Below are positions 29,901-58,455 of a stretch of 64,000 bases of DNA, one piece after another (position 1 is the stretch's first letter; every line of letters begins with the position of its first letter). The position numbers and the translations under genes are program-made. Under the pieces are notes generated by a model. That model was given only the letters and a program-made list of their open reading frames with translations. It was not told where the DNA came from and ran no database searches. The DNA is from Heliocidaris tuberculata (taxonomy: Eukaryota; Echinodermata; Echinoidea; Camarodonta; Echinometridae): NCBI GenBank assembly GCA_025618425.1, contig CM046850.1:11940971-12004970 (forward strand). Direction: 5' to 3'.

Positions 29901-30428
29901 CCCTTCATGGTAGCAAATATGACCGTGGAATACTATTGTTTCGAGACTAAGACCAAATAAAAAGGAGTGCCGAAGCATGTGTGATAACAAAGGCAAGTAC
30001 ATATCAGATGTTGGATAAAAACACTGTCCCTTGCATGTTCAGGTGAAGGACCGGATAATAGTTTCTCAAAAATTACTCTTTCGACTTTTGCAACTAAATG
30101 ATTTATATGAAGCAAAGAAGTATATTCATCAAACTGAGCATCCTAAATGATACTTTAAACTCCAGTACAGACTTAAATCTACTTTCATCAACATAAAATA
30201 CCACACTGGAATATACCTGATTTGGTATCTTTTGAATTGAATGCTTCTCCACATATCATTAACCATGAATTCAATATATTACGGAAATACAGTTAAGGGG
30301 CATGCATACATGATTCTAACAACCAAACATTTTTCAACTGATTCCGCTACACTGTTGTGATTTGCTTCCATTTTTAGAAAGCTGAGGGTTTTCATTTACA
30401 TAAAATCAAGGGGGTCAGTTTTCTTCAA

Positions 30429-30679
30429 CTAATTTCTAACAAAGTCCTTAATATTTGTCCAATCCCTTCCTCTCAAGGAAGGTTCTGCCGATTTACATTC
30501 ATCACACTGTGCTTTGCCAGGTACCTTTCTGAGCTCAAAGCAACTTTTTAGCCTTTTTGCGACTGCTACCTTTTCATCTCGAGTCCATGGTCTCTTTCTG
30601 ACAACTTTTTTCATTTTAGTCATCTTCTTTACCTTCTGTGGTGGGGCATATGATGTTTTTCTATTCTTTGATTTGGCAC
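30429..30679 (-). CDS. Terminal exon: basic KRPW C-terminal domain
   Basis: Acceptor ttcactttatag|GT, phase 1; 83 residues and a stop. A Lys-rich lead is followed by RKRPWTRDEKVAVAKRLKSC, then KVPGKAQCDECKSAEPSL and RDWTNIKDFVRN. I recall the same KRPW...C..C...(N)I(K/R)(D/Y)(F/Y)V(R/H)N layout at the C-terminus of zinc-finger/recombinase proteins in fish, probably a Myb-like or zinc-binding DNA-contact module. It joins the recombinase side of the fusion through a 44-residue acidic module. Confidence 0.75.
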
Positions 30680-31523
30680 CTATAAAGTGAATAAAGAAAA
30701 AAAGGTGTCTAGGGATAAATAATCATGTATATTTGCATTCATATCTACTTATAAACAAATTAAGAGGACAAGAACTTACCACCTGAGCATATACATCATT
30801 TAACCCTAACTAGGCCGGGGGGGGGGGGGGGGGGCCTCCGAGGCCCCCCACCCCTCGACAAATTTTGCGATCACTTCGCCGCGCAAAATTTTCTGACCAC
30901 GCTGCTTGTCGACTTTTTTCTCTCAAGTGTCCCGCAACTTTTGAGACCATTTTCACGAATATCGGACCTACCGTTACGACGCTATGCGACATTTTATACA
31001 TGCATGTCAGCCTCAAAACTGCTCCAAAACGTGATTTTGTGTACAAATTCAATGCGAATTGTGTTTTTTTCTACTAATTCACTTAAAAATTCATATTTTT
31101 GCTTTCAATAGCTGAAATCAATTTATTTTAGCACAATTATTCATGAAAAAATATTTGCAAAAATATTTTGCTCAAAAAACAATAAAAAACAAAAGGTCAA
31201 AAAAACAAAGAAATACATAAGAAATTTTTAAAACAATAAAAAAAAATAATAAATTCATTTGCGCAGCTGCAAAATTGTTAGAAATTATACAAGGAACATT
31301 TATACCAAACATTAGCCTTGTATGATCTCTTTCCAGTGATTTACAGCAAAAAATGTACTTTTATGCATATATTAGCATAATTAATTAATTAGAAATAAAC
31401 AATGAATTTTTTCAAAAATTATACAGTGAGATTTTGTAGCTTACATGATACTCTGCACGTGTGCAAAGTTTCGCGGCGATAGCCCGATCGACGGCCGAGA
31501 ACCAAAGGGGGGGGGGCCTGGGA

Positions 31524-31567
<44 letters not shown>

Positions 31568-34500
31568 AGCCATGAGAACTCGCAAATTACCCCGGCCTAG
31601 TTAGGGTTAAAGAGTCATCCATACGTGCTAGATTTCAATACAGTTGCCCACATTGAACACATCAAACAGTAATCAGCTGTAAACCATATATCTGCCCTAC
31701 TTTAAACTAATATCAATTTAATTGGGTGATCTATCTTGCACTCATCACTCCCAAAACAAAACTTCAATGGTGGACAAATCTGACCTTTTTATTCTTTATA
31801 AGCTGATAATATGCAGATATTTTTTCATACAAGTGAAAAAAAAATGTTGTAATCATAACTCCAACTAATAAAGTCATCATAACATAGGATCAGAATAATA
31901 CATGTATTCCTTTAAAATCTATGTGCTATTTTGGGTCAATAGTTTATTAAAAGATGTGCATGTCCTCGTTTGAAGGGGTTGACACAACTCACAACTAGAA
32001 TAAAATTTATTCATTAGAGATCAGCCCTCAGTTTAATGTATACACAAATTGGATTGCGTTTGGTCAATCAACTTATACACACCTACAATGGTAGAGTCCT
32101 AAATTACATGTCCCCAATGAATATCAGCCCAAAATAATTAGCCAAAATATTGATTCACTTTACATGTAGAAACATAATTTTCCAAACTCAACTTAAAAGG
32201 CAAAAACATCGCCAAGGATTCAAATAAAATTTAGCTGTTTCAGCAAAGTCTGCTGAAGGGTTCTGTACTGTATATTTCAAGCTACTACTGATTTAACCCA
32301 AACAATCCATAAACCGACTTGCCGGACGCTTATCTTTCTCCAGCAAGGCACCATGCGTGGACGAACCTCAGTGTCCAGCTTACGCGAGGAAACCACAGTA
32401 AATGAGTTCTTTATTCTTTCATACAGTACTTTCAGATATTGCTTCTTACAAGTATATTTAAGAGGATCGCACACATAGAAACATGGTTTGAAATGATTTA
32501 ACATTATTGACCAATGGCTTTAATGTAGAGCCCCGATTCTCTGGGATGTAACAAGCATCACTATTTATCCACACATTGAAGTAGATGGGGAACATGGGCC
32601 CTATGGTAATAAGCAGCTGTACAGGTTAGTAAAAACTATCCTTGAAATCTGACACAAGTGGATTTGATAAAACTCAGTTTAAAATGACAGCAGGTTAAAC
32701 CAATACCAGGTGCACACCATTATTAAGATACTTATTGTTGTGATAAACTATGCCATGTTCGCTGGCCCACAAGCATTGTTTAACCCTATTTTAAGGGCGC
32801 AATACTGGTGTAATGGAAAAGAAATGCACAGTCAGCTAATAAATGAGTATGAGACATAACATTTTAAAAATTAATCATTAATTTTTTAGGGATATCTACT
32901 CAAAGATATGTGCTAGAAACTAGAATAATTCACTTTCTGAGATAAAGTTTTTACTTCTATTTGAACTGCTGCATCAGTGCAATATATCTTGATGATACAC
33001 TTAAATCACCACTGCAACGCAGTCACAGTACTTGCAAGGATGGTGTATGGAAATTCTTACCATCTGTCAACAACTCCACATCTTTATCTACAAGTACTTC
33101 AAGGTCCGCATCTCCAGCATGGCCCTCATCAATAGGAAGGGGATCATCTTCATGATCTACATCTGCCTCCAAAGGAGCATCCAGTGGAGCCTCTGAAAGG
33201 GAAAAATGATACACAAAAGGATACATTTAGTAATAGTAATACATTTGGTAGACATACCAACAAGACCTTCATCTCATCACTGCTGATTTTAATAATGAAA
33301 GGGTTTTCAGGTAAAAATCTATCATTGGGGTACAGATTTAAGATGGAAATGAAAGAGCTCTTACAGTACATGAAAATGCTTTGCACCTATCGCAATAAAT
33401 CTCAAAAGTATACTATTGAAAATGTGTGTAAATCATTTAGACCAAAGCAAATTTTGCTGTAAATAATGAAATATTACTTGTATATCTACATTTGTAAATT
33501 TCAAAATAAACCTCCAACTTTTGGCGGTTATAAAGCCTATATTGCCACTAACAAAGATATCGAATATCGTATTGCTAAGAAAAATTATAAACTTCCCACT
33601 CATTTTCGGAAATGGAAATTTAAATTATAGGTATTGTTATAGTCATTAATTGAAATGGGATATCACTTGTAACCACCGTGTGTACTATAAATATGAAAGC
33701 AATTTTTTTCTTTTTTTTTTCTTTACGACCATTTTTTTATTTTTGTCTTACAAGCCATACAAAATGCATTGATTTTTTTTCATCCCTCTGTTATTATACA
33801 TTTGCCTTATTTAAGTGTGGCGATAAATCATAGAAAACACAAAGTGAAGGCCTCAATATACTTACAGATAATTTTGCTACATTGTTTTCGATGTATACTA
33901 ATTTAATGCTGGTTTATTTTATTGTTGTTTTTGTTTTTTTTCCTTAATTTTTTGCTTTGATTTGTTTCTTAATTGTTAAGCATAAAATTATGATAACCCA
34001 ATAAAACTTTTTAAAAAAAAATTGCTGTAAAGGAAGCTGTCACATGTATTTGGGTTTCATGTAACATCAGTCAGGGAGGTGCTCAAAATAACCCAGTACA
34101 GTAAGCGTTAAAAAAAATCTCAACTGCCAGGCTTCCGGAATATTTGATTGGGTAGAATTAAACTGTGAAAATATCATGCTTTAAAACCGTTGTTTAGTGC
34201 TAAAAAAAAGCTTAAATCCAAAATACCCCCTCTCTAGAGCACTAGTGCTGGAATTTTGCATCTAAGGGACGCTGCATTTAATTTTCATAGATATCTTGAT
34301 AGTGTGTGTGACTCCCTTTATTTTTGCAATCTTTGTTGGTTTTTCATCCATCAGAATATAATTAGATACATGTATGTCAGACACCTTGATTTGAAAATTT
34401 CTTTAATTGCTCAACCACAAACCTGACCAGTGCCTTTAATTGAAGCTCTCACAGATTTCATGAATAATTCACAAATCTACATTCTAAAACAGTCAAATTC

Positions 34501-37500
34501 AGTGGCTTTTGTTAACATCAAGCTGGAAGGAAACTTTGCAATATTTGGTATAGAATAGAATTGTAAAAAATTAGCTTTTCTTTCATTTCATTGGTGTATT
34601 TCGCTTTTCTTTCATGAGATTAACCAATCAGCATGTCATTATAACAGCCTCCAAAGGTTGGTGTAAACTTTCATCACAGTTTTCTCCTTAACCGCTTTTC
34701 TTTACGTTAATCTTAAAATGTATGTAACTTCGCCCAAGAACATGGTATTACAATATTTTCTTTGAAAAATTAAATAAGCTTGTATTGTGTAGTTTGCAAT
34801 AAACCTAACAACTCATTTTTGACAATATATGACTTATTTCTGATTTTGCTTGCTTGTGTCACATATTTCAACAAGTTCTTTTCATGGCTAAAAACAGGAA
34901 TTATGGTTAATTTGCATATTTACATATTCTTTCACCATAAATGACATGAATGTGATAAAGTACATCACTTGCTAGTATGTTTACAGAAAACCTGGAGAAA
35001 TCCTACAATTTCTCTTGCTTTCAGTTAAAAAAACTGATTTTCTCCAAAATTCACCCCAAATTAGCATATTCTTTCTTTTTTTCTCAAATTCTACTTGACT
35101 TGTTTTACCTATGTACCAAATTTACAGTCAATTGGTCTGTTTATGGCCGAGACTTAATATCCTCAAATAACTTGATGGGATTAGGATTAATGTCACTCGC
35201 ATGTTTCCCTTTTTATCATCCCCTAGAAATATGATTGAAATGCATCATGTAAGAAATTAAGTGTTCTAATAAAACATGAAAAATATAAAAAGTACCTTCA
35301 TCATCCTGCAAGACTATGTCATCCAGGCTTTTTCCAGCAAGATTAGCAAGGGTACCACTTTCCATGTGTAGAAGGACCTTTGAGACCTTGGCAAGGTGTA
35401 GGGTTTGTTCAGGAAGGCGATAAAATTCTCTGTGAACCCGGATATCGTGGCCGAGAAATCTGGCTAACAGGTCTAACTCATTGTCTTTCAAATTCATGAC
35501 TTGTGAAGCTGTTCCGATGTGCTTCCTCAGTCTGGTGGATCTCAAGTATTCTGGTTTGCTTGCACCACATAAGCTGGCATGCTTGCGAATAACATCACAT
35601 CCTCTGACATGGCCTGTGGACTTCATCAAGGGGAATACATATTCATTCTCAGTTAGTACCCCAGCCTCTTGTCTTTTGTCCTTGAGCAGATTCAGGCTTT
35701 CCATCATGGCTTCAGTTAGTAACACAGGTACTGTTCTACCTTTTTTACCAACTATCTCCAAATGACACAGAACTCTGCACAGCTCTTTCTCCCATTTAGA
35801 TAAGGATTCTCCAAACATGTCAAGATTCTCTGCTCCTTGTTTACACTTATCAAGATCCTGCCGCTTTATTTTGGACACTTCTCCTGACCTCTTCCTATTA
35901 AACACCAAGATGGCAGCCAAGGTTACTTCATTAAGGTACTTCCACTTTTCTGATGCATTTGGACAGTGAGTTAAATTCTGCTTTCCTACTTCAACTTGGG
36001 TCTTCAAGTAAGCGTTGAACTTGGCAATGTCACTGGTAACTGGCAAAAATGCGGTATTGTTTCTCTTGTTCTCTGTCAATGTACGCAATGCGTGGCTTGA
36101 TATATCTATCCACTTCATAGCTAACAAATCTCTGAATCTGTTGCATCTCTTCTCCATTACCTCATCTCCAGCCATAAGAGCCTTCCCTAAGAGAATTTCC
36201 GTCACTTTTTTCAATTCATGACCAATTTTAAGGGCCAGGCTTGGTGTTCTGTAGAGGTGGGTAGTTTCGTCAAACCCAGCCGCTTTCCTTGTAGCCTGAA
36301 TAACATAATTAAACTTCACTGGGTCAATGATGTCAGTAAGCATGGCACTTGATTCATTTGTTAGAGCCCTATATTCTAGCACCATCCGTCCTACCTCTCG
36401 CAACTTGTTCCTTATGTGCCCAAATTGATCTTTGTCATGTCCCAGCTTTAAGGCATACTTCTCAGTGAGTTGGTGCATAAGTTCATCACTCTTTATGAAG
36501 CGTGCCACCCCATTTTCATCATTGTGCAGTCCAGATAGAATGCCATGTGCTATTTCTGACATTCCTTGAGAAGGTAGCAAAAGCCTGCCTGGTTTCACAA
36601 AATCTCCCCTTTTCTTTTTACCTTGGCCTTTCTGATTAGGTAGATTAAGGTCTTCTTTGACCTTGCAGCTATGTTTCCAAAGGTCACCTTTTGCAAAGTA
36701 GCCAAGACAATATTTGCAAGGAAGGTAGTTATTGTAATCTGCATTGTAACTTGGTCTGTAGACTGGGATGATTTCACCTTCCCCTTTCTTCAAAACCTCA
36801 GCATTGTGCAAGAAATTCCCATAATTTCTCATCTTGGTCAATAGCTTATCTTTAAGGGCTTTGTCTGTTGTGGCTTTCCATTGGATAATCTGCATCTCAC
36901 TTTGGTGGCTTTTATTTTCTTGCAGATGTCTGGGTAGCTTTTTTTGAAATGTCTGGCAAAAGGGGCAATATGCACCCTTGTCCCATTTCCTCTTGCCATT
37001 AGTATTTTTTGTTTGCATAAGAGTTATGCTGACTTTCTGAACACCACTACCAGATTTTTTACCAGCATCACCATCATTCCTATCAGCTTGATGACCACCA
37101 TCATTATCTGTAACAATATGAACACTATCAGCGCCATTTCTATGAACATGACCATCAATATTTTCAGTCACTCTTTGTATGGTTCCTGAATTTCTTGCAC
37201 TGTCATGTTTCCTAAGTACTTTCCTTGGTATTGGATCCTCATCACTTGATGTATCGCTTGATGTTGCAGGAACATAGTCATCATCAAGAAAATCTAAAAA
37301 CAAATAGAAGAAAAAGAAAAACAAGGCAAGTGCCATTTTGAGTCTCGCCCATAAAGCATACAGTATAAATTGGGCCATTAAAAGAATACCATTTGGCCGT
37401 TAAAATTCATCCACCCCTGCCTGGGACCTTTGAGCCTGTGATGACAATTCACTCCCCATGTGACATCATCCACCCAAGTTAGATCACAAACAGATCTATG

Positions 37501-40500: not shown

Positions 40501-43500
40501 ACACACGCAATCACATGACCTGCAAGGCCATATGGGAAGAGTTACAAGCCAAGAAAACACCCAGAGCTTGAAACAAGAATAAAAGACTTGCCTGGGCCAA
40601 GAAACACGAAACCTGGACAACCCAAGAATGAAATACAGTCTTATGGGCAGATGAATCCAAATTTGAAATATTTGGATCCCATTGCAGGGTCTTTGTAAGA
40701 AGCCGGAAGGGCGAAGGCATGAATGCTGCATGTGTGGTTCCAACAGTCAAGCATGAAAGGGGTATTGTGATGGTTTGGGGATGTTTTACTGGTGGCAAAG
40801 TTGGGGATCTATTCAGACTTTGTGGTAACCTAAACCAAAATGGCTACCACAAGATCTTAACATGCTTCTCACTCACCTTAGAAATGTTCAGTTACATGTA
40901 TATACACTGAACAACTCAAACTTGAGACATGCAATAGAGGACAGTCCTCAGTTGCATGTAAAAACATTTCTCATTCACCCTAGAAATGTTCAGTTAAATA
41001 CACTGCACAACCCAAACTTGAGACATGCAATAGTGGACAGTCCTCAGTTGCATGTAAAAACACTTCTCATTCACCTTAGAAAAGTTCAGTTATTTACACT
41101 AAACAACTCAAACTTGAGACATGCAATAGTGGACAGTCCTCAGTTGCATGTAAAAACACTTCTCATTCAACTTAGGAATGTTCAGTTAAATACACTGCAC
41201 AACCCAAACTTGAGACATGCAATAGAGGACAGTCCTCAGTTGCATGTAAAAACATTTCTCATTCACCTTTGAAAAGTTCAGTTATATACACTGAACAACC
41301 CAAACTTGAGACATGAAATAGAGGACAGTCCTCAGTTGCATGTAAAAACACTTCTCATTCACCTTAGAAAGTTCAGTTAATTACACTGAACAACTCAAAC
41401 TTGAGACATGCAATAGTGGACAGTCCTCAGTTGCATGTAAAAACACTTCTCATTCAACTTAGAAATTTCAGTTATTTACACTGAACAACTCAAACTTGAG
41501 ACATGCAATAGTGGACAGTCCTCAGTTGCATGTAAAAACATTTCTCATTCCCCTTAGAAATATTCAGTTATATACACTGAACAACTCAAACTTGAGACAT
41601 GCAATAGTGGACAGTCCTCAGTTGCATGTAAAAACACTTCTCATTCCCCTTACAAATGTTCAGTTATATACACTGAACAACTCAAACTTGAGACATGTAA
41701 ATTGTAATAAGGGTCAGTCCTCAGTTGCAAAACAACATGCTTCTAAAACATTTTAATAGTCATTCTCTTTTAAAAGACGGTCCCTGGTTATTCTTACCAT
41801 CTGTCAGCAAATCCATATCCCCATCTCCGTGAAATTCAGTATCTTTGTCTTTATCTGTCGGCAGGGGGTCATCTACATTCTCGTCCCGGGTAACAGGACC
41901 AGCTTCCAGGGGAGCTGCCAAAGGTGCATCTGAAATGGAAAATTGATATCAAGAAATACACCTGAAAATTCACATTTATATATAAGGCTGTGAGTATTTT
42001 TTTTTCCAGCCAATAACTCCTAATAGTCAGTAATGTCCCTTAATTGCTTCCTATTATTGTGGTGGAGCGCATCATTCTTAGAAATCTAGCTGACATTCAC
42101 TACATATATGAAGAAATAAAAAAGCAAATCTCACGTCATCACACAAAATTGACACATGCAATAGAGGACAGTACTCAGTTGCATGTAAAAACATTTCTCA
42201 TTCCCTTTAGAAATGTTCAGTTATATACACTGAACAACCCAAACTTGATACATGCAATAGAGGACAGTCCTCAGTTGCATGTAAAAACATTTCTCATTCA
42301 CCTTAGAAATGTTCAGTTATATACACTGCACAACCCAAACTTGAGACATGAAATAGAGGACAGTCCTCAGTTGCATGTAAAAACACTTCTCATTCACCTT
42401 AGAAAGTTCAGTTATTTACACTGAACAACTCAAACTTGAGACATGCAATCAGGCCCCTGAAGCTCCGCCATGTTGTCCGGATCCATTAGAAGGCCCGATA
42501 AGCACCCATGCATAATTCATGAGCGTAAATGCATGATTCATTTTGTAAGATGCTCCCCGAGAGTAGCATGTGTTTGTACGCGGTATGAAACACATTACGC
42601 GCATCAGCTTAGAGCATGCGCAGTAAGAAAGGTCAAATTCGGTAATTTATGCATATATGGTAATATATTCATGGTTCAATGCAACAGATTCGGCGAATCA
42701 AAGTCGTTAATTTCTGATTGTGGCCGGAGGCGCTCGGTCAATGCACTTTAATTGTAATCGATCTCCGAAACAAAATCTATCGCTTTACAGAAAAATTATT
42801 TGTAAACAAATCAAGCTACAAAATGTAACGGGGCCGTATCAAATCTAAATCATGGATAATGTAAAAAAAAAAAAAAAAAAAAATTAGTAGGGGCTTGCTT
42901 AACACTTAGTGGGAAAAGACTCTTTTCTTGTTTGAATACTTATATTTCTGTGAATATATTCATTCGATATGCATTAACAATTTGATGAATAAATACATGA
43001 ATAGATAAATAAATAATACATGTGAAATGGAAGAAAAAAAACATCAAGAAGTTATCTTACGGAGTAGAATTTTTCAGGGATGGTACAGTGTGCAGGAAGG
43101 ACAATCTTCATTTGGGGAGATGGGGCGGCGTCCTGTGATAAACTGAGATTTTCTTTTTTATTCATTTCATTTTATAGTCTTGATGTAAACGAAATTTTTT
43201 TAATTTTATGTTGAAAAAAAGGGTACGTTTGTTCTTTTTTGGACGTGATTTTTTTTTAAATTGAAATGAATAATCGAAAAACCGGGAACATTTATTTCCA
43301 AAATTAACGTTTACTCTCCATTTGTATTTTTTTTTTTTATTTTGCCATTCCTTTCCAGCTTTCATGCCTGTAGGTCACCACTCAATCACAAGTGTCTTAC
43401 AATACCCATTCATTTCCATTTTCATGAACATGCACTTATGATTAACCATTCCATTCACACAAAGCTTATTGTCTTCACTCTCCCTTTCACACAGGGGTCA

Positions 43501-46500: not shown

Positions 46501-49500
46501 TCCAGGGGCCTTGAGTGGGCCCCAAACCCCGGCCGTAAGGGACTTGGCACTTTCCGCTCGTGATGTGTGCTTTGTGCACATTCAAAATTTTCAGGATGAT
46601 TGCTTCAGCCCTTCCCCTTCCCACTTCAAAAAAGTTTCCTACGCTTTTGTTTTGAATTACACGATATATAAGCATACTCATGAAGATGAATGGAAAGGTT
46701 CACTAAATTTACCTGTAATTTAGGAGCGCTAAATTTCTGATTCATCATGCAAGGTCAACAGTTGCAATGTTGGGTTCCTTTCCATTTGGATCTGTAGTAA
46801 AAAAATTAAAAAAAAAAGAATAAATAAATTCATAAATCAAAATACAGTTGTCACTTTTTTAAAAAAAATCTTTCTTGATAGAGTCATGAAATACATGGAT
46901 AGGTTATTTTTTATCAGGCATAAGTAAAAAAAAAAATCAGTGATCATTAATAGCTACCTTATCTTTATAAAGTTGCATTCAAGCATATTATAAACCTTGT
47001 TTCTTGGAAACAAAAAAATAAATAAATAAAAAAGAAAGGTATATTACTATTTACAGTCTATAGACACAAACTTTCGGCTAGTACAGGCTTCAGTCAGTTT
47101 AATTGCCCAAGTGGCATGAATTGAATAAAACATTCCAAAGAGATCTACATGTTTGGTAAAAAAAAAAAAAAAAAAAATTAAATGGGGAAAAAAATCAAGT
47201 AAAAAGGGTGAAGTTGAACCGACAGTAGAACTAGAGGAGCCTACACCCATCTTGTCGGTCATCGAACTTTTCCCCTCAACTTCTCAAGCAAAGCATTTAC
47301 CTTATGCTTAGCCCGCGGGCCTGGGACTGGGTTGGCCCGTCCAAGCCATTGACTTAATTGGTCTACATCTACTCAAGATACTGAAGATTCAGATTTCAGT
47401 TCATGGAATAAAATATCAACAAATATACTGAGTTCAAAACATTAAAACCTCGTGTAACATTAAATGGTGTGTAAAATTTTTATCTACATTAATTTCGATC
47501 TTAATATCTCACTGCAGAACCCCATCACACAGGTCACAGCCATATTTTCCAACTCTTTACTTTAGTGTACTTAATACCCCGTACGTTAGAATTTAGATTC
47601 ATGTTGGACCAACGAGTACGCTTGTGTGCAGCATACTGATTAACACGAAGAAAATCTTATGAAATATAATCTAGACGAAAAAATCAAATCATTACTGATG
47701 AGTTAGATCCAATTTGTTTGCATGGTCATGCATTTAAATTTTTGACGCTGTCAAAATAGCCACCGCGCCGCTGACCGAAACTGGCCCAGGGCAGCTGGGT
47801 GGCTGTCATGAGTAGCAGCGTGTGAGGACAGCAATCTCTGTGTCAAACACCTCTCGACAATAAGTTTAGAACAGTAATTTCGAGAGAAAATTGTTTCAAT
47901 CCCTTTTCAACAAAACTCTTGTTAATCCTTTGGAAATGTAGAGAAATTATTATAGATCACCTATACCTGTTCAAGTTATTTCAATTAATGAACTTAATAT
48001 ACGATATTTGATAATAATTTGAGCTCTACTCACCTTGTCCTTTTGAACTAATATCTCTCGTTTCGTGCGGGTGACGTCATGTTGCATATGATCTGCATAA
48101 TTAATAGGCTTGAATTGACGAAGTTGAGGTCAAGTAAATTTTGATCGATACTGTCGAATTATGTACATATTCATGAACTAGCATCCAATCAAAGTTTCAC
48201 AATAAACTGGCACGCACAAGTAATATGAATAATGAATACTAATGGTGCTTATCGGGCCGTTCAAATGATCCGAAAGAGGCGGAGCCTAATGCCATTCGCG
48301 TAATGATTTCCACGCGTGCTGCTTTCCGTCTAGTAAAATTTATAATACGTCTATGCATGCAATAGTGGACAGTCCTCAGTTGCATGTAAAAACACTTCTC
48401 ATTCAACTTAGAAATTTCAGTTATTTACACTGAACAACTCAAACTTGAGACATGCAATAGTGGACAGTCCTCAGTTGCATGTAAAAACACTTCTCATTCA
48501 CCTTAGAAATGTAAAGTTATATACACTGAACAACTCAAACTTGAGACATGTAAATTGTAATAAGGGTCAGTCCTCAGTTGCAAAACAACATGCTTCTAAA
48601 ACATTTTGATAGTCATTCTCTTTTAAAAGACGGTCCCTGGTTATTCTTACCATTTGTCAGCAAATCCATATCCCCATCTCCGTGAAATTCAGTATCTTTG
48701 TCTTTATCTGTCGGCAGGGGGTCATCTACATTCTCGTCTCGGGTAACAGGACCAGCTTCCAGGGGAGCTGCCAAAGTTGCATCTGAAATGGAAAATTGAT
48801 ATCAAGAAATACACCTGAAAATTCACATTTATATATAAGGCTGTGAGTATTTTTTTTTCAGCCAATAACTCCTAATAGTCAGTAATGTCCCGTAATTGCT
48901 TCCTATTATTGTGGTGGAGCACATCATTCTTAGAAATCTAGCTGACATTCACTACATATATGAAGAAATAAAAAAAAGCAAATCTCACATCATCAGACAA
49001 AATTGACACATGCAATAGAGGACAGTACTCAGTTGCATGTAAAAACATTTCTCATTCCCTTTAGAAATGTTCAGTTATATACACTGAACAACTCAAACTT
49101 GAGACATGCAATAGAGGACAGTCCTCAGTTGCATGTAAAAACACTTCTCATTCACCTTAGAAAGTTCAGTTAATTACACTGAACAACTCAAACTTGAGAC
49201 ATGCAATAGTGGACAGTCCTCAGTTGCATGTAAAAACATTTCTCATTCCCTTTAGAAATGTTCAGTTATATACACTGAACAACTCAAACTTGAGACATGC
49301 AATAGAGGACAGTCCTCAGTTGCATGTAAAAACACTTCTCATTCACCTTAGAAAGTTCAGTTAATTACACTGAACAACTCAAACTTGAGACATGCAATAG
49401 TGGACAGTCCTCAGTTGCATGTAAAAACACTTCTCATTCAACTTAGAAAGATCAGTTATTTACACTGAGCAACTCAAACTTGAGACATGCAATAGTGGAC

Positions 49501-52500
49501 AGTCCTCAGTTGCATGTAAAAACACTTCTCATTCAACTTAGAAAGTTCAGTTATTTACACTGAACAACTCAAACTTGAGACATGCAATAGTGGACAGTCC
49601 TCAGTTGCATGTAAAAACACTTCTCATTCACCTTAGAAATGTAAAGTTATATACACTGAACAACTCAAACTTAGACATGTAAATTGTAATAAGGGTCAGT
49701 CCTCAGTTGCAAAACAACATGCTTCTAAAACATTTTAATAGTCATTCTCTTTTAAAAGACGGTCCCTGGTTATTCTTACCATCTGTCAGCAAATCCATAT
49801 CCCCATCTCCGTGAAATTCAGTATCTTTGTCTTTATCTGTCGGCAGGGGGTCATCTACATTCTCGTCCCGGGTAACAGGACCAGCTTCCAGGGGAGCTGC
49901 CAAAGGTGCATCTGAAATGGAAAATTGATATCAAGAAATACACCTGAAAATTCACATTTATATATAAGGCTGTGAGTATTTTTTTTTCAAGCCAATAACT
50001 CCTAATAGTCAGTAATGTCCCTTAATTGCTTCCTATTATTGTGGTGGAGCGCATCATTCTTAGAAATCTAGCTGACATTCACTACATATATGAAGAAATA
50101 AAAAAGCAAATCTCACGTCATCACACAAAATTGACACATGCAATAGAGGACAGTACTCAGTTGCATGTAAAAACATTTCTCATTCCCTTTAGAAATGTTC
50201 AGTTATATACACTGAACAACCCAAACTTGATACATGCAATAGAGGACAGTCCTCAGTTGCATGTAAAAACATTTCTCATTCACCTTAGAAATGTTCAGTT
50301 ATATACACTGCACAACCCAAACTTGAGACATGAAATAGAGGACAGTCCTCAGTTGCATGTAAAAACACTTCTCATTCACCTTAGAAAGTTCAGTTATTTA
50401 CACTGAACAACTCAAACTTGAGACATGCAATAGTGGACAGTCCTCAGTTGCATGTAAAAACACTTCTCATTCAACTTAGAAATTTCAGTTATTTACACTG
50501 AACAACTCAAACTTGAGACATGCAATAGTGGACAGTCCTCAGTTGCATGTAAAAACATTTCTCATTCCCCTTAGAAATATTCAGTTATATACACTGAACA
50601 ACTCAAACTTGAGACATGCAATAGTGGACAGTCCTCAGTTGCATGTAAAAACACTTCTCATTCACCTTAGAAATGTAAAGTTATATACACTGAACAACTC
50701 AAACTTGAGACATGTAAATTGTAATAAGAGTCAGTCCTCAGTTGCAAAACAACATGCTTCTAAAACATTTTAATAGTCATTCTCTTTTAAAAGACGGTCC
50801 CTGGTTATCCTTACCATTTGTCAGCAAATCCATATCCCCATCTCCGTGAAATTCAGTATCTTTGTCTTTATCTGTCGGCAGGGGGTCATCTACATTCTCG
50901 TCCCGGGTAACAGGACCAGCTTCCAGGGGAGCTGCCAAAGGTGCATCTGAAATGGAAAATTGATATCAAGAAATATCCTTGAAAATTCACATTTATATAT
51001 AAGGCTGTGAATCAATTTTTTGCAGCTTACAATTCCTAATAGTCAATTAATCAGTAATGTCACTTGGTCCTTTCATTAGGTTGGAACATATCGCGCTTTA
51101 GAAATCTGGTTAACATTCATTATAAAAGAAATATAATGTCCTTAAAAACATGAAAAATACAAAACATACCTTCTTCTTCCTGCAGCACAGTCAACTTGAC
51201 ATCATCATTCTGTTGCATCTCCAAATCGACTCCCTCTTGAGATTCACAACTAGACACCTTTTAATCATAATAGCAAAAATACTGGTTTGAGAACCACTTG
51301 GCTTGGCAGTCAGCAAGATGTCTATATGACTAAATAACTCACTTTAGATCCAAATTCAATTTGACCTCTGTGGCCCCTTCACTATTGTAAAGACAATCAC
51401 CACTCTATTTAAACAACTGTAATAATGATCAAATTTGGAAACCATCACACACGTCAAGCTCACCATTCTTGTAAACTTGCATTTTATGATAAAATTTGGC
51501 AGCCATACATGTACATAGCATGTCACTTATCACATTTGCAGATTGCCAACCATTCCAGAATATCAGCGACATTTATTCTTATCTGAGTTCTGTGCTTATT
51601 TTGCAAATAAATGGCTGAGCTCATGAGAAATATCTGGTTTTGCCATTAACATGATTAAGTTATTCATATTGTACTTTCTATACTCAAACATATATTCCGT
51701 ATAATAGTTGACATCTCTGTATTTGATCTTGGTCAAGGTGTCTATTGTTCTGAACTTTGTTGATTTGCATGATCAAATCTGTAGCACATGCTTTACCCCA
51801 TTTTACCTCTGTTGACCAACACTTCAACAGTTAAAATCCGTTCTTCCACTTGGCACTATCATACCCTTAGAGTTCAGTATACTTGACAATGATTTTGCAT
51901 AATTTATACAAACACTGCACTTACTCCACCACTAAATTCAATTCAATTTCAATTTATTTATTAAGTGAAAATCACATGAATAAGTATACCATGTGAAATG
52001 TGAGGATCACACCCAAAGAAAGCCAAAAGCTTGAAGGATTGGGGGATCCTTTAACAGAGTAAAACAGATGACTGCATATCTAAAAAATAAAGTCAATTGG
52101 ACTGTTAAGTTTGTGGCAAATTCTATGACTAGAACTTAAATTTGAATTTGTTAAAAAAAATGTTCAAATTTTAAGCTATAATCATCTTAGACAAAGGGTA
52201 AAGTCAAGGAAACGTAGAATAAATTATACAGTACTACAGAAGATCCATATAAAACAAAACAAGGCATTACTCAAACCACGCATGTTGCCTGATCTCACAA
52301 TTAATACATATTACATGAAATTCAATGTATTCATCATGTTAAGTTTGTAGAATAACTGACAACCTGACCATAAATTACCTTGTCAAGTTGTCATGTATCT
52401 TCAATTAATGTGTGTCACAATGCCAATGTTCCCATTGTGTTGCCATTATGCACCTTCAAGTTTGACTGTTATTGAAACAAACCTGTTCGAACAGGAGCAA

Positions 52501-55500
52501 GTAAATACAATATTAGCCTAAATATTGAACAATTTGACCATAAATGACCTTGACATCTGACCTTTGACCCCATAGTGTGTCATCATGTGAAGATTCCCAT
52601 AGTGCACCTATTATCCAAGTTTGGTTGTAAATGTAACAAACCTCTTTGAATGGGAGCAATTTAAAAAAGCTTAACCAAAACTTTAACGGACACGTGGACG
52701 CACGGATGGACAGACTGACAGACATACAGAATTTGGATCGCTATGTGTCCCCCCAAAAAAATTAGTTCAGGTGACACAAAAACAAAAACTTACCCTCCAA
52801 GGGGCAGATCTTCGGGCGTAGTCATATCTTATCTCTGTTCCACTTCTTACATGTTTCTTGGCAAATAAGCAGAGATGGGGATTCCCTTTGATATGGATTA
52901 GTTTAACGTAGCCATTTGCCCCATTACCCCATCCATCATTGGCAAATCTTCCAAGTCTATTGGTGTTGTATGCATCAATGCTAGGAAAAGAGGTAAAAAG
53001 AATAACAGATAAAATAAAAATTTTGAGTGCAAACTCAAACAATTGAAGATCTTACTGGAAGAAGTATGTAAGCGCAGAAGGAATTTGGGTGTCAAATGAA
53101 TAAGCTTCAATGGGTTTTGCCTGCAAAATATGTGAGGGGTCTTTGGACTTATATACTTCTTCAACTAAGGACTTCAATTGGATTAGCTGATTTTTTGAAA
53201 GTCACAAGCTATTTTGGGTGATATTTAGTGAGTTTTTTACAAGTTTTTTTGCCCTGTGACCTTTGCCCTTTGACACCCTGAATCAAATTGGTTCAGCATT
53301 ACATGTTTATACCTACTTGGGGAAAAGTTAGGTAAAATCCATACTTTTGAAGTTATTGCTGAATCAAGAATTCAGACGGACGAATGGACAAGACAACCTA
53401 GAAATTCAAAGTATACTTTAATTTCATGATCATTCAATGCATGAACAAATTTGATTCTTCACAGGAAAAAAAGTACCTTACCCTAAGGAAGTATATTTTA
53501 GTGTTTTAGACCAAAATAGTTTCAAAGTAATAGGCAACTTTAATCTCAAGTTAAAAAGTACAATCAAAATAAATTATGAGATGATTTGTGAATCAAACAC
53601 TCCATGAGCCAAAAAAAAAAATAAAATAAAAAAATATAAGAAGACTTTCAAAAAATGACCACTGATACAAATTAACGTCACCTAGTGAAAACATACAATT
53701 TAACCAAACCAACCAAAAAAAAAATTGTTGTAAAGGGTAGCTTGTTTAAAGAATTTAAGAAATAAAAACAAAAAAATATTTGATAATCTTTTCTCATTGT
53801 AATTTACAAAATCAATTATTGGTTTTCTTTTGATATTTAAGACTTTTAATTGGTATAATCTTGTGTAGATACTTGCTGACCAGCTAAAAAACAATGATTA
53901 GTTTTTTTTTTTGTTTATTTTTGATGGACATGACTGTGTATATGAAAATCAAACACCAGTATTACATTTTACTTCAGACATGTTGGGCCACAGTGGGGTC
54001 CCTCATTATATGTAGAAAAAAACTTCACTATATCTTACCAATAAAGGACACCTTTAGTATGACTAAAAAAGTAGGCATAATCCCTCCTCTTTTCTTGTAA
54101 TTCACAGTCAAGTCTTTCTTGGGAGAGATCAAAGTCTGCTTCTGACATTAGTGTGCCAGAATATTCTGTGATGAAATCATTTTTTTGCAAGTCCTTTGTC
54201 ACAAACAAACCCCATCCTGAAAAAAAAAAACAATTATTGAGAATAAGGAGTGTGCTGAAATCCGCTATAAAGCAATGACAGGAAGAATAAGTTGTTGAGG
54301 TATTCTCCTTCAATCTCAATGTGTAATCATAGATTTACAATGTGATTTCAGTTTAAGCAGGGCAATGTTTCCTAGGTTAGAAAGGCTTCTCTATACAGAG
54401 ATGATCTTGTGTTGTGTAAAATGACTTTAATAAATATATTTATGCTGTGAGTTGACTCTTTTTAATAGGAAATAGAGCAGGATTGGTTATGTATATTTTT
54501 AAAGGCCTATACTGTGGATGATAGCCATAACCTTCATTTTGCAGAATCAATTCACAAAAATTATCATGTCCATTTATGACTTGATACTGTATATTGATAG
54601 TATTAACTCACTAAAAAAACAGGTATTAACATAATTTCATAATCATCATTATCATTATGATCACTATTTGTTTCAATAATTCTCAAATAATTATGTGCAT
54701 TAAGGAATAGACTAGGGGTAATTGTTAGACAGTTGCTCCTGGTTGTAAAATTTTTATGTCGAGCTCTAGCTGGTCTGAAAGTTCTTAAATTTTGATGTGT
54801 AGAATAAATAAAAGCCAATCCAAATGAAGTGAATTAAATTGTTTTGGACCAACAAAGTTCTGTGAATTAAATATTTAGAAATACAAATTGTAAAGCTTGA
54901 CAATCAACACCATACCTATGTTGTCATTGACATATCTTTTCTCAACCCATGGAGGATCCTCCTGCTTATCAATCCAGTACTTGGAATCCTCAGGATTCAC
55001 CCTTGTTTTACTCCTCTGAAAATTAAAGAATATGTTTGTCAATTAGTACAGCTATTTCACTTGGTAATCTACTTAATAGATATGTGTCAGAACCAAATCT
55101 ACATGTAAAACTGTTCACATTATTAGCTCCTTTAAAGAACCAATTATTTTAATTCTCAAATCAAATACCATTGATCAGATGATACTGCAACTGTAATCTG
55201 AAAAAAAAAAATAAAACAAATAAAATGAATAAAATAAAAAATAATAAACTAAAAATATTACAATAAATGCTTATCAGTCACCGTTCGCACAAATCCAGCT
55301 GTAAAAAAATAATTTGTAAATGTCTGTGCATGATCAAGCATGGCAATTTTGTTGATCTTTTTTAAAATAAAAAAGGATTATAAGATTTAAATCATATTTT
55401 TTCTATTTGATAGGTGAGTGAGCCGAAATATGCTTGGGGAATGCTGTACTTGATAATGATAATCTATATGTACCAGATATCTATAACAAAACCTATTTCT

Positions 55501-56199
55501 ACTGGCAACAAATTAAAAAGAAAAAAAAGATATCAGATTATCAGAGGAAACTGCTAAAATTTCCACCTTACGCAAAGGTCACATATCGACTCTAGGATCC
55601 GCACAATGCGTAAAAATGGAGTTCCTTTTCATAAAAACAGCCTTTAATGAGTTCATGGATATCCCATTGAATAATGTATCCTGCAAAAATGATTTCATTG
55701 GGATTTCCAAGAAGCTTGATTTATGACCGGTCTCATGAAGAGCTGCCCTGTTTTGCTCCCTGTACAGACTCCAGTAGATACAAAAAAGAGCCCCTTCAAA
55801 GGTTGAGTCAATATATTGCACCATTGAGGTATTCAGATTGTTTGTCCAAAAAGTTGTAGAAGTGAACATTACGAAAGAAGCAACACTATTTATGAAAGAA
55901 CTTGACTTCATGACAAAAATGGTTATAACCCAAGTGACGTGACTTAGTGATTTTCTATTTTCTTAAAAATCAAGGCGATATAGATTGATCAAAAGCTAAC
56001 CCTGTATGCGATGTTCTCTGAAGATTCTAATCCAGCTGTTGGACAACTTATACATGCTACCAGAAAATTTTTTAAAAACCAACAAAAATTAAGATGTTGC
56101 ATCATGATGGTTACAAATACGCTTTAGACTGTACAGATTATGAGGGTAGCTATAAACTGTAATTACCTGTGTTCTCTGTCTTGTACATATAACATCCAT
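30429..56199 (-). CDS. SET-domain / zinc-finger / tyrosine-recombinase fusion gene (12 coding exons)
   Basis: The exons, from 5' to 3' on the minus strand, are 56167-56199, 54916-55015, 54039-54216, 52794-52980, 51170-51257, 50815-50946, 49780-49911, 48651-48782, 41798-41929, 35296-37293, 33061-33192 and 30429-30679. All have AG/GT borders and the phases agree throughout; the sum is 3495 nt, i.e. 1164 residues plus stop. The domains are SET (about 44-160), four 44-residue acidic modules (196-371), two zinc-finger-like motifs (481-501 and 564-581) and a tyrosine recombinase domain (about 820-1010). A fifth acidic module (1038-1081) and a basic KRPW domain (1111-1164) complete it. The likely setting is nuclear chromatin: lysine methylation coupled to DNA binding or recombination. 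The zinc-finger/recombinase/C-terminal part resembles a family I recall from fish and invertebrate genomes, thought to be related to Crypton-type recombinases. The model is my assembly and has no transcript support here. Confidence 0.75.
30804..31606. mobile_element. piggyBac-type MITE, 803 bp, flanked by TTAA
   Basis: CCCTAACTAGGCCGGGG at the left end is perfectly inverted at the right end (CCCCGGCCTAGTTAGGG). TTAA flanks both sides (30800-30803 and 31607-31610), the exact target of piggyBac-like transposases. A C run of about 42 bases lies at 31526-31567. No transposase is encoded. It sits downstream of the last acidic exon, in the last intron of the SET-recombinase gene. Confidence 0.85.
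31612..33060. other. Intron of the SET-recombinase gene, no extra features
   Basis: Between the terminal exon and the fifth acidic exon I see only ordinary AT-rich intron. Confidence 0.5.
33061..33192 (-). CDS. Acidic 44-residue module exon, diverged fifth copy
   Basis: 132 nt, phase 1 at both ends (acceptor cctttcag, donor gtaagaat). It encodes EAPLDAPLEADVDHEDDPLP and ends VELLTD. The layout matches the four copies at 41.8-50.9 kb (APL.APLEA, DDPLP, LLTD), but the sequence has diverged, so this is the older copy. It lies downstream of the recombinase exon. Confidence 0.75.
33193..35295. other. Intron of the SET-recombinase gene
   Basis: AT-rich, with T-runs near 33705 and 33920. No exon, RNA or clear mobile element seen. 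Confidence 0.5.
35296..37293 (-). CDS. Large exon: zinc fingers plus tyrosine recombinase
   Basis: 1998 nt without a stop, phase 1 at both ends (acceptor tttgtttttag, donor gtactttt). It begins with an acidic Ser/Asp segment (DDDYVPATSSDTSSDEDPIP). A first finger, CPFC...RH.(6)H, follows, and then a second, CKYC...WKHSC. The C-terminal third has tyrosine-recombinase landmarks: box A RKRSGEVS (R840, E843), a beta-hairpin Lys in GKKGRTVPVLL (K888/K889), TRLRKHIGT (R961), FLGHD (H987) and EFYRLPEQ (Y996, nucleophile position). The first His of the usual H-x-x-R is Thr. The HVREFY-type ending fits Crypton-like and related eukaryotic recombinases rather than phage integrases. A single exon of this size suggests acquisition from an intronless source. 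Confidence 0.85.
37294..39400. other. Intron, mostly featureless
   Basis: Holds a poly-G run at 37553-37572 and a partial AGGTCA-type text around 37440-37700 (tgtgacatttgacc, 'tccatccaagtttagtcaac'). No exon found. Confidence 0.45.
39404..39798 (-). CDS. Possible alternative terminal exon with a C-terminal transmembrane segment
   Basis: An acceptor-like gctctctgcag| precedes an open frame of 131 codons on the minus strand. It starts VPAFMCDDDTPPPPPPT, runs through Pro/Ser/His-rich text and ends with a 24-residue hydrophobic stretch (FVACVLVFLIVFTVIILIAW and four more), then a stop. Read from this acceptor it is phase 1, the same phase as the donor of the acidic exon at 41798. Splicing 41798 to 39798 would give a membrane-anchored SET protein without the recombinase. 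The Pro/Ser part is low-complexity, so it may be chance. Confidence 0.3.
39875..40379. mobile_element. Foldback element (TTAAAGGGGAAGTTCACCC)
   Basis: The ends TTAAAGGGGAAGTTCACCC and GGGTGAACTTCCCCTTTAA are perfect inverted repeats; long arms follow with TGACGTCACATGCGAGCAGC and its complement. Non-coding. Confidence 0.9.
40584..40862 (+). pseudogene. Tc1/mariner transposase fragment
   Basis: The plus strand reads RLAWAKKHETWTTQE, then an in-frame TGA at 40629-40631 (normally Trp), then NTVLWADESKFEIFGS, RVFVRSRKGEG, PTVKHERGIVMVWGCF and NQNGYHKIL. This is the central DDE region of Tc1-type transposases, with the second catalytic Asp in WADESKF. Both ends are missing, and the 96-bp minisatellite follows directly. 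Confidence 0.85.
40895..41700 (+). repeat. Minisatellite, about 96-bp unit, block 1
   Basis: About eight to nine copies of a unit containing 'cttgagacatgcaatagtgg', 'acagtcctcagttgcatgta' and 'acacttctcattcaccttag'. The units are 90-97% alike by eye. The open frames running through it are repeat translations, not genes. Confidence 0.95.
41798..41929 (-). CDS. Acidic 44-residue module exon, copy 4
   Basis: 132 nt, phase 1-1, acceptor ttccatttcag, donor gtaagaat. It encodes DAPLAAPLEAGPVTRDENVD and ends MDLLTD. It is practically identical to the exon at 49780-49911 and lies in the same 8-kb-shifted duplicate block. Confidence 0.75.
42150..42449 (+). repeat. Minisatellite block 2, interrupted at 42449
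   Basis: Three to four 96-bp units. The last is cut after CATGCAAT, where a 5.9-kb insertion begins; the sequence resumes at 48356 with CATGCAATAGTGG. Confidence 0.9.
43600..43634 (+). repeat. Poly-A run
   Basis: A run of A (after 'ccaccc') of the kind that marks a retrotransposed tail or a slippage artefact. Confidence 0.8.
44296..44656. mobile_element. hAT-type MITE (CAGGGGCGGATCCAGG)
   Basis: The left end CAGGGGCGGATCCAGGATTT and the right end, whose complement is CAGTGGCGGATTTAGGGAGG, are imperfect inverted repeats. A related element lies at 59902-60153, and a decayed copy at about 43970-44155. No coding capacity. Confidence 0.7.
45894..45975 (-). ncRNA. Possible exon of a spliced non-coding transcript
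   Basis: Bounded by acceptor ttttttcacacag and donor GGAAAG|gtaggt on the minus strand. All three frames contain stops. Similar bordered segments lie at 46713-46791 (ctacag/gtaaat) and up to 45400 (cattcaacag), and donors are found at 48034 (ACAAG|gtgagt) and 47301. Together they look like a multi-exon non-coding RNA inside the 5.9-kb insertion. Confidence 0.3.
46713..46791 (-). ncRNA. Possible exon of a spliced non-coding transcript
   Basis: Acceptor actacag, donor TTACAG|gtaaat. It contains only a 19-codon frame starting MERNPTLQLLTL. See 45894 for the set. Confidence 0.3.
48356..48545 (+). repeat. Minisatellite block 2, continued after the insertion
   Basis: Two 96-bp units that complete the block cut at 42449. 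Confidence 0.9.
48651..48782 (-). CDS. Acidic 44-residue module exon, copy 3
   Basis: 132 nt, phase 1-1, same borders as its sister copies. It differs by a few bases: the start reads DATLAAPLEA, and the end reads LLTN rather than LLTD. Confidence 0.7.
49008..49680 (+). repeat. Minisatellite block 3
   Basis: Seven 96-bp units of the family described at 40895, between acidic exon copies 3 and 2. Confidence 0.95.
49780..49911 (-). CDS. Acidic 44-residue module exon, copy 2
   Basis: 132 nt, phase 1-1. It and its flanks (49742-50428) match 41760-42446 almost base for base at an offset of 7982, so this is a very recent duplication. Confidence 0.75.
50137..50715 (+). repeat. Minisatellite block 4
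   Basis: Six 96-bp units between acidic exon copies 2 and 1. Confidence 0.95.
50815..50946 (-). CDS. Acidic 44-residue module exon, copy 1
   Basis: 132 nt, phase 1-1, acceptor ttccatttcag, donor gtaaggat. Ends LLTN. It is the first module after the SET-side linker exon. Confidence 0.75.
51170..51257 (-). CDS. Acidic linker exon after the SET domain
   Basis: 88 nt, enters in phase 0 and leaves in phase 1 (donor gtatgttt). It encodes VSSCESQEGVDLEMQQ and ends VLQEEE, paralleling VLQDDE at the end of the recombinase exon. Its acceptor (atgattaaaag) has a weak pyrimidine tract and is the least certain splice site of the model. Confidence 0.6.
51258..52793. other. Intron with a partial AGGTCA-family repeat
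   Basis: The stretch 52540-52755 has 'ccttgacatctgacctttga' and 'ggatggacagactgacagac'. The rest is AT-rich. No exon seen. Confidence 0.5.
52794..52980 (-). CDS. SET domain, second half
   Basis: 187 nt, phase 2 to 0; acceptor cttttcctag, donor gtaagttt. It encodes CIDAYNTNRLGRFANDGWGN, then PHLCLFAKK, GTEIRYDY and APWR. This matches the SET C-terminal core of KMT5A-type enzymes (C.DA....R.GR..NHS...PHL...A...I..G.E..YDY). The NHS motif is changed to NDG at 118-120; Asn118 is kept and the YDY tyrosines (156, 158) are present. No post-SET Cys cluster follows. Confidence 0.85.
53180..53410 (-). repeat. Partial AGGTCA/GACGGAC-family repeat
   Basis: Contains 'ccctgtgacctttgcccttt' and ends 'cagacggacgaatggaca'. 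It lies in the intron between the two SET exons. Confidence 0.6.
54039..54216 (-). CDS. SET domain, first half
   Basis: 178 nt, phase 1 to 2; acceptor with a long T tract (tttttttcag), donor gtaagata. It encodes GWGLFVTKDLQKNDFITEYS, then GTLMSEADFD and KRRDYAYFFSHTKGVLY. The G(W/R)G(L/V)F and EY.G motifs of the S-adenosylmethionine pocket are intact. Confidence 0.85.
54217..54915. other. Intron, no features
   Basis: AT-rich. The 71-codon minus-strand frame at 54603-54818 has no splice sites or protein character. Confidence 0.5.
54916..55015 (-). CDS. Pre-SET exon
   Basis: 100 nt, phase 0 to 1; acceptor ttaattttcag, donor gtatggtg. It encodes RSKTRVNPEDSKYWIDKQED, then PPWVEKRYVNDNI leading into the GWGLF of the SET domain. 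It has no Cys cluster, so there is no true pre-SET zinc module. Confidence 0.75.
55016..56166. other. First coding intron
   Basis: An A-rich tract lies at 55198-55260. The 110-codon minus-strand frame at 55579-55911 does not fit the splice phases and has no recognisable features. Confidence 0.4.
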
Positions 56200-56479: not shown

Positions 56480-58455
56480 TTTCGACCTTACATCATCGGA
56501 ATTTATGCCTTCGCCATCACCAGATCGGAAATGCATGGCTTATTTATATCGACTTTTTAAAATCTTGTAAACATGGCATTTTCGACCTGGACCTTCATCC
56601 TTGAGACCACAAATCTATTTAGACCACTGCATGCATACAAAAGTCCGGGAGTTGAATCGTGGAGTTCTTTAGTTATCACAAGTATGAATTTATGTCAATG
56701 TACATGTATATTATAACCTCTCTAATCTATGAACTTGCACTTTGAGACCCTAAAATCAAATCAGAAAAATGTCTCTCACTTTAATATGCATGCATGATTT
56801 AAGTTTGAAGTTTATCCATCACAGGTTATAGCAAGAACTAGTCATTTTCATGTATTTTATGGCCTCTGTGAACTTGAAATTTAACCACATGACTCTAAAA
56901 CCATGTCAGATCATTGTCACTCCCTTATGCATACATGAACCAAATTTAAAGCTGATCTATCAAATGGTTCTGAAGTTATGGCAAGAATGAGCCATTTCCA
57001 TATATTTCACTGAACTTTATGAACTTGAAATTACACATGACCCCAAAACCTAATCAGATCATTGCTCCTGCCATAAGCCAAGAATGAAGTTGATCTGTCA
57101 AATGGCTCTTAAGTTATCCTAATCAAAAGCCATTTTTATGTATTTTATTGAACACTGTGACCTTGTACTTCAACCACAGGACCTTGAAATCTACGCAGAT
57201 CATTGCCTAGTTCATATGCATACATGAACCAAGTTTACCGTTGATCTGTCCAATGGTTCCTAAATTATCACAAGAACGAGCCTTTTTTTATGTATTTTAT
57301 TGAACTCTGTGACCTTGAAACTTTTATGTCATAACCCTGAAATCTAATCAGAACATTGCCCTTCCTATATGCACACTCCAATTAAATCTGAAGTTAATCC
57401 AATAAATGGTTCTCAAGTTATTGCAAGAACAAGCCATTTTAATGTCTTTATTGAACTGTGTGACCAACTTCAACCTCATGATGCCAAAATCTAAGCAGCA
57501 CATTGCCCCTCCAATGTGCATACTCAAGCCAAGTATGAAGTTGATCAATCAGTTTTTAAGTTATTGCGAGAACGAAACCCCTATGGATGGACAGACGTAC
57601 GGTAGGACAGACGTACAGAAGGACAGATGTACGGAAGGACAGACGTACTGAAGGACAGACGGACGGACGACCCGAAAACATAATGCCTCCCGCCACCATC
57701 CATGGTTGGCAGAGGCATAAAAATAATGCCAATGAATTCTATTCCATGGATACTAAAGCCAAGTCTGAAGTTGATCAGTCAATCAGTTTTTAAGTTATTG
57801 TGAGAACAAACAATTTATACTAGGTATTCTATTGAACTCTGTGACCTTGAAACTTTTATGTCATAACCCTGAAATCTAATCAGAACATTGCCCTTCCTAT
57901 ATGCACACTCCAATTAAATCTGAAGTTAATCCAATAAATGGTTCTCAAGTTATTGCAAGAACAAGCCATTTTAATGTCTTTATTGAACTGTGTGACCAAC
58001 TTCAACCTCATGATGCCAAAATCTAAGCAGCACATTGCCCCTCCAATGTGCATACTCAAGCCAAGTATGAAGTTGATCAATCAGTTTTTAAGTTATTGCG
58101 AGAACGAAACCCCTATGGATGGACAGACGTACGGTAGGACAGACGTACAGAAGGACAGATGTACGGAAGGACAGACGTACTGAAGGACAGACGGACGGAC
58201 GACCCGAAAACATAATGCCTCCCGCCACCATCCATGGTTGGCAGAGGCATAAAAATAATGCCAATGAATTCTATTCCATGGATACTAAAGCCAAGTCTGA
58301 AGTTGATCAGTCAATCAGTTTTTAAGTTATTGTGAGAACAAACAATTTATACTAGGTATTCTATTGAACTATGTGACCTTGAACTTTTACCCCATTACCC
58401 CAAAATCTAGTCAGCATATTGCCCCTCCCATGTGCATACTCAAGCTAAGTAAAAA
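56480..58455 (-). repeat. Long AGGTCA/GACGGAC-family repeat upstream of the SET-recombinase gene
   Basis: About ten degenerate units with TGACCTTGAA-type blocks, 'aatctaatcagatcattgc' and 'gtgcatactcaagccaagta'. It includes two complete GGACAGACGGACGGACGACC ends with the 'gcctcccgccaccatccatgg' hairpin. It contains the exact tandem duplication at 57300-58363. Confidence 0.85.
57300..58363 (+). repeat. Exact tandem duplication, 532-bp period
   Basis: 57300-57831 and 57832-58363 appear identical base for base, including the GACGGAC tract and all reading frames. Divergence resumes at 58364 (ctgtgacc versus atgtgacc). Confidence 0.9.

Follow-up and report, generated by a model that had tools for sequence, protein, structure and literature searches.

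A predicted gene joining a SET domain, zinc fingers and a tyrosine recombinase in Heliocidaris tuberculata and its relatives in echinoderms and fishes

The window analyzed here is a 64,000-nucleotide stretch of the genome of the sea urchin Heliocidaris tuberculata (assembly GCA_025618425.1, contig CM046850.1, positions 11,940,971 to 12,004,970). On its minus strand, from 56199 to 30429, lies a gene predicted to encode a SET domain, zinc fingers and a tyrosine recombinase (YR) in one protein. Rebuilt from the genomic sequence, the gene has 12 exons of compatible phase, and 11 of 11 introns are bounded by GT-AG. At 3495 nt, the spliced frame comprises 1164 codons and a terminal stop, and its first Met is preceded by another stop in frame. 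This reproduces the 12-exon, 1164-residue frame drawn in an earlier note on this DNA, with its AG/GT borders, compatible phases and stop before the Met, as well as the three junctions singled out there (51170/50946, 41798/37293 and 35296/33192). The parts of the gene are listed below, with residues of the zinc fingers and the YR given in exon 10 numbering.

56167..56199, minus strand: exon 1, start Met and 10 further residues (MDVICTRQRTQ), placed by GT donor and phase
54916..55015, minus strand: exon 2, start of the SET region, gap-free against relatives at its junctions
54039..54216, minus strand: exon 3, N-terminal half of SET (GWGLF...TEYSG), placed by a Pfam SET match under the cut-off and the family SET profile
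52794..52980, minus strand: exon 4, C-terminal half of SET (CIDA...RYDY...PWR), placed by a Pfam SET match under the cut-off and KMT5A chain 5teg
51170..51257, minus strand: exon 5, linker, placed by splice signals and phase
50815..50946, minus strand: exon 6, 132-bp linker repeat, copy 1
49780..49911, minus strand: exon 7, 132-bp linker repeat, copy 2
48651..48782, minus strand: exon 8, 132-bp linker repeat, copy 3
41798..41929, minus strand: exon 9, 132-bp linker repeat, copy 4
35296..37293, minus strand: exon 10, acidic segment, two zinc fingers and the entire YR
36905..36967, minus strand: zinc finger 1, C-x2-C-x9-H-x6-H (residues 109, 112, 122 and 129), assigned by residues
36665..36718, minus strand: zinc finger 2, C-x2-C-x11-H-x-C (residues 192, 195, 207 and 209), assigned by residues
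35357..36499, minus strand: YR fold, core-binding and catalytic domains (residues 265-645)
35420..35890, minus strand: YR active site, R468, K516, T586 (replacing His), R589, H615 and Y624
33061..33192, minus strand: exon 11, 132 bp, diverged kin of linker exons 6-9, located after the YR
30429..30679, minus strand: exon 12, C-terminal domain and stop

The window gene is a genomic prediction, and most of the relatives to which it was compared are annotated gene models. Exons 1 and 5 and the linker exons 6-9 were placed by splice signals and phase alone, without homology support. Exon 1 is the least certain exon of the model; several relatives begin with M followed by an Arg-rich stretch. The exon junctions stay in frame and free of gaps when aligned to relatives, and the single frame joining the SET domain, the zinc fingers and the YR, as proposed in the earlier note, is supported both by the rebuilt model and by these relatives. 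Judged from sequence, the fusion is very probably real.

A profile built from seven relatives matches the SET region of the spliced window model at residues 13-167, in exons 2-4 (E 1.5e-37). Against Pfam SET, the exon 3 open reading frame (ORF) reaches E 3.5e-4 and 21.4 bits, under the cut-off of 22.4, and exon 4 reaches E 1.5e-3, also under the cut-off. Exon 4 alone matches KMT5A (chain 5teg) among PDB sequences (E 4.8e-07). The same chain is the closest SET by sequence to that of relative P0016 (E 1.5e-12), and the predicted SET structure matches the fold of SETD8 (KMT5A). By sequence and predicted fold, the SET domain of the fusion family is closest to KMT5A, also named SETD8 or PR-Set7, which is not itself known to be fused to a recombinase. 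Residues were counted in 50 rows of less than 80% identity taken from 130 long rows, in KMT5A numbering. The Tyr245 equivalent is kept in 49 of the 50, Asn298 and Tyr336 in all 50, and Tyr334 in 47, while His299, the His of the NHS motif of KMT5A, is replaced by Asp in 47. By kinship with KMT5A, lysine 20 of histone H4 (H4K20) would most likely be the substrate.

The predicted structure of the recombinase matches XerH/Cre, with a core-binding domain followed by a catalytic YR fold; the best Foldseek E-value for the exon 10 model is 3.5e-3. The fold and the R/K/R/H/Y residues are shared with XerH, Cre and lambda integrase, which are prokaryotic or phage enzymes not known to carry SET domains or zinc fingers. 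Window exon 10 had no YR match in Pfam, and the YR exon had no match among PDB sequences at E <= 1. PF00589 (Phage_integrase) is matched by 3 of 45 chosen family members at E <= 0.05, the best at 3.7e-05. The YR exon aligns to named echinoderm proteins across most or all of its length at 49-54% identity. YRs as a class carry an HxxR motif, and their R/K/R/H/Y residues have roles in catalysis. Conservation of these was counted in 109 cores, left from 231 rows after requiring at least 400 residues and less than 80% identity: R468 is kept in 101, K516 and R589 in 103 each, H615 in 104 and Y624 in 105. Fourteen cores have an exception or a gap at one of these five positions, including six from three fish proteins with a double SET-YR arrangement and two gaps (P0058 and P0002). 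The box-II position, which is the first residue of HxxR and was assigned from sequence and spacing, is Thr rather than His (T586) in 101 of the 109.

Both zinc fingers precede the YR, and neither finger of the window gene has a Pfam match. Among rows with a letter at these positions, the two Cys and the first His of zinc finger 1 are kept in 105 of 105 and its last His in 90 of 106, and all four residues of zinc finger 2 are kept in 107 of 107.

After the YR comes a C-terminal domain, which is helical in the Strongylocentrotus purpuratus model (predicted local distance difference test, pLDDT, mostly 92-95) and is present in 112 of 224 relatives by profile. Exon 12 is 35-65% identical to the C-termini of relatives and 45-65% identical to those of three sea urchin relatives, in which the alignments extend beyond the stop. 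The window frame ends at least 11 codons short of its relatives, and matching residues return for 10 codons past the stop (30396-30431), so the ancestral frame probably did not end at 30429, where the stop may reflect a truncation, an allelic difference or an error.

The linker between the SET domain and exon 10 is fast-changing in the fusion family. In the window gene a 132-bp phase-1 exon is present four times (exons 6-9) at 97.7-100% identity, and the copy number could for that reason vary by allele, splicing or assembly. Exons 7-9 have common flanking introns at 97-98% identity; around exon 6, the 300 bp of intron on either flank agree with those of the other copies at only 84%, with 1-2 differing bases in the first 60 bp downstream. 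The duplicated exons are flanked by 96-bp minisatellite arrays (40865-42449 and 48998-50714), and a 1.4-kb block of the region is repeated 8 kb apart at 97% identity. Exon 11 has the same length and phase as exons 6-9 and shares 17 of 44 residues with them, a score reached in 0 of 10,000 shuffles. Tandem repeats of 18-71 residues, with differing units, lie upstream of the YR in 25 of 33 chosen relatives; in the other eight no linker repeat was found at periods of 15-79. The linker seems to grow repeatedly through local duplication.

The earlier note knew of no described system with this architecture. The architecture is not unique to the window locus, being that of a multi-copy family of echinoderms and fishes. 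In predicted proteins the recurring order runs from a KMT5A-like SET domain through a linker, frequently repetitive, to two zinc fingers, then the YR and finally the C-terminal domain. The earlier note had suggested seeking this order in other animals, and it was found in predicted proteins of sea urchin, sea cucumber, sea star and many bony fishes. Protein searches were restricted to 0.55-1.75 times the query length, and many matches are isoforms of one gene. With the YR exon and open flanks as the query, 369 proteins were returned; among the best 120 of the 369 the echinoderm genera included Lytechinus, Diadema, Apostichopus, Strongylocentrotus, Holothuria, Amphiura and Anneissia, and the remaining relatives included many teleosts and a few molluscs. 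The nearest named relatives of the window protein are echinoderm. The SET profile matches 26 of 122 sequences (121 proteins and the window model); the Amphiura and Anneissia members among those examined had no match to it. A Pfam scan of 45 members, selected with known SET carriers placed first, found SET in 17 and Phage_integrase in the three mentioned above. Reverse searches used the SET part alone, with a sea urchin query (2 hits, 1 new) and a Pungitius query (best 120 of 253, 103 new). The 104 new proteins carry a YR in 100 cases and the C-terminal domain in 70. A sea star protein (P0121) has SET, a partial YR and the C-terminal domain, and a 1114-residue protein on a 10.6-kb contig (P0006) carries the SET end, a repeat linker and the YR.

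A YR tree held 50 rows chosen from the 122, those omitted being mostly isoforms or unnamed entries along with P0012, which has two YRs. A single clean gain of SET on this tree was rejected, as the SET label needs 16 changes, the same as shuffled labels. Near-identical proteins differ in the label, which makes truncated gene models a likely cause; true loss or gain of SET is also possible. Prokaryotic or viral origin, or contamination, was likewise rejected: tblastn scans, covering only contig stretches that match a few peptide patterns, gave no relatives in viral contigs (exon, alignment A1) or in bacterial and archaeal contigs. Viral structural matches were weak, and the named top ones were mostly integrases or recombinases. 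Three fish proteins (P0122, P0124 and P0130) have the double arrangement SET-YR-SET-YR, with the YR catalytic residues lost, and are possibly a domesticated offshoot.

Other N-terminal partners were also seen among the YR relatives. By eye, P0037 (Patella) has a Tudor-like N-terminal stretch, and P0057 has an OTU protease domain in its N-terminal part. The C1-type zinc domain (PF00130) occurs in 8 of the 45 scanned members, together with SET in the fish protein P0070.

Fishes hold near-identical full-length copies. For the pipefish Vanacampus margaritifer, P0096 and P0102 share 99.8% identity, and P0103 is at 97.9%, over the full length including SET, and the three lie on separate contigs of 25.9, 31.4 and 18.7 Mb, which suggests that the SET-YR fusion spreads as a unit. 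One Vanacampus margaritifer copy is annotated NCK2a, suggesting that it sits at that gene. Isoforms from these loci have 1046, 1067 and 1088 residues, and the 21-residue steps equal the linker repeat period in P0103, which suggests spliced genes rather than processed copies. This species has two more loci, which share 91% identity and match the first group at 39-51%. Alosa has five genes of 85-98% identity on five contigs and a sixth at only 41-49%, and five proteins of Apostichopus are 29-44% identical. From these identities, the family behaves like one with recent spread in some fishes and old paralogs in a sea cucumber.

No published SET-YR fusion was recognized among the papers listed by a literature search, which left out bioRxiv preprints and most subscription journals, and the fusion very probably represents a recurrent family with no description in the literature searched. 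SETMAR (Metnase) of anthropoid primates is likewise a SET lysine methyltransferase fused to the recombinase of a DNA element, and that fusion began about 50 million years ago (PMC6326780). In SETMAR the SET is joined to a mariner DDE transposase, which one abstract calls inactive, whereas the partner in the window family is a YR fold with a largely intact active site; unlike SETMAR, the family has a KMT5A-like SET domain and spans echinoderms and fishes in many copies. Eukaryotic YR genes are described as rare, and all those found up to 2011 as encoded by mobile elements (PMC3212892). Among these are the Cryptons, which have a YR without reverse transcriptase and are known from sea urchin and medaka; for animal Cryptons, terminal repeats are reported as not found (PMC3212892). 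The same paper describes animal Cryptons without a C-terminal domain, whereas the window family has one after the YR, and the term "SET domain" is absent from that paper. The family further differs from Crypton/DUF3504 in the Thr that replaces the box-II His, and DUF3504 (CryptonA) is matched by 0 of 45 family members at E <= 0.05. As there is no DUF3504 match and a C-terminal domain is present, we do not file the family under Crypton, although it would work like one. Helentrons also carry a SET-domain gene, but as a separate Clr4-like ORF in a rolling-circle Rep/helicase element (PMC4067079). Retrotransposons with DNA methyltransferases are also mobile elements with a chromatin-modifying enzyme, but in that case it is a cytosine methyltransferase in a retroelement of dinoflagellates and charophytes (PMC5890265).

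We give an even chance to the reading that this protein moves a Crypton-like YR element carrying its own histone methyltransferase, or descends from such a mobility protein after light domestication. The zinc fingers and the YR core-binding domain would recognize DNA ends, and the YR would cut and rejoin them via a 3'-phosphotyrosine, with the element moving as DNA. The SET domain would methylate nucleosomes at the donor or target site, most likely at H4K20 given its kinship, and this methylation may mark the new element copy or its target. The enzyme activities, the substrate, the DNA sites and the order of steps are inferred here, and the window copy itself may or may not still move. The coupling of mobility and chromatin marking in one protein makes a strong, testable hypothesis, and the data are compatible with the idea put forward in the earlier note that DNA movement and histone marking are coupled. 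A broader proposal is held more tentatively and stays on the doubtful side: that animals have DNA elements of a class in which the mobility enzyme doubles as a histone methyltransferase, moving DNA while writing a nucleosome mark at excision or insertion, and retained or spread in echinoderms and fishes.

Several observations weigh against the reading as a mobility protein or its descendant. The methyltransferase could be altered or dead given the Asp in place of the NHS His, and the recombinase could be so given the Thr at the box-II position. The window gene is 26 kb long, with other repeats in its 11 introns, and looks like a resident host gene. The divergence of the Apostichopus proteins fits old host paralogs, and copies on multiple contigs could be segmental duplications or partly assembly effects. 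SET and YR trees conflict for P0076, P0015 and P0025. Finally, blastn of the two flanks of the one window copy gave no clear terminal-repeat pair; its matches were short and repeat-like, the best being 73 bp at 77%.

A rival reading is a domesticated, SETMAR-like host regulator, in which the zinc fingers and the YR would mainly bind DNA and direct the SET methyltransferase to remnant ends of elements, while recombination has become rare or has been lost. This is a serious possibility, if short of an even chance. It is consistent with the intron-rich locus, the old and diverged echinoderm gene family and the lost catalytic residues of P0122, P0124 and P0130, and has a precedent in SETMAR, whose transposase part brings the SET methylase to transposon ends (PMC6326780). 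However, apart from the box-II His, the YR residues are kept in 101-105 of 109 cores, whereas Crypton-derived DUF3504 genes are reported to have lost the Tyr and second Arg (PMC3212892), and recent fish copies lie at different loci. An active YR that the host keeps to rearrange its DNA in a programmed way, at chromatin that the protein's own SET domain has marked, would account for active sites conserved in diverged echinoderm paralogs and for one fused protein, but the multi-copy spread is better explained by a mobile element, and we consider this improbable. Least credible is an artefact in which the exon chain falsely joins neighboring genes, or a gene and an inserted YR element. Exons 1, 5 and 6-9 were placed by splice signals, and gene models make up the window gene and most relatives, but the same order recurs across many species, the YR is present in 100 of the 104 new SET matches, and P0006 unites the SET end, linker and YR within 1114 residues, with the window junctions in frame and gap-free against relatives. 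The separate SET and YR genes that the earlier note named as its refuting case are unlikely on the same grounds.

If the mobile-element reading is true, a YR and a histone methyltransferase in one protein would tie DNA movement to the marking of chromatin, a link open to testing in fishes and sea urchins, and SETMAR would gain a second, much wider counterpart. It would also account for some fish genes labeled uncharacterized or, once (P0134), KMT5A-A. In Apostichopus, kmt5a-a and kmt5a-b of the sex region are candidates for further SET-YR genes.

Other features of the window include two transposase-like ORF fragments recognized by eye, one of Tc1 type inside the intron before exon 10 (40632-40910, plus strand) and one of Harbinger type (62962-63327, minus strand). 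An uninterrupted 332-aa ORF at 1692-2690 resembles, also by eye, a rhodopsin-type G protein-coupled receptor. The window further contains a 697-bp direct repeat of 93.5% identity (57216-58441) and an array with a unit of about 154 bp in 5.6 copies (5842-6689).

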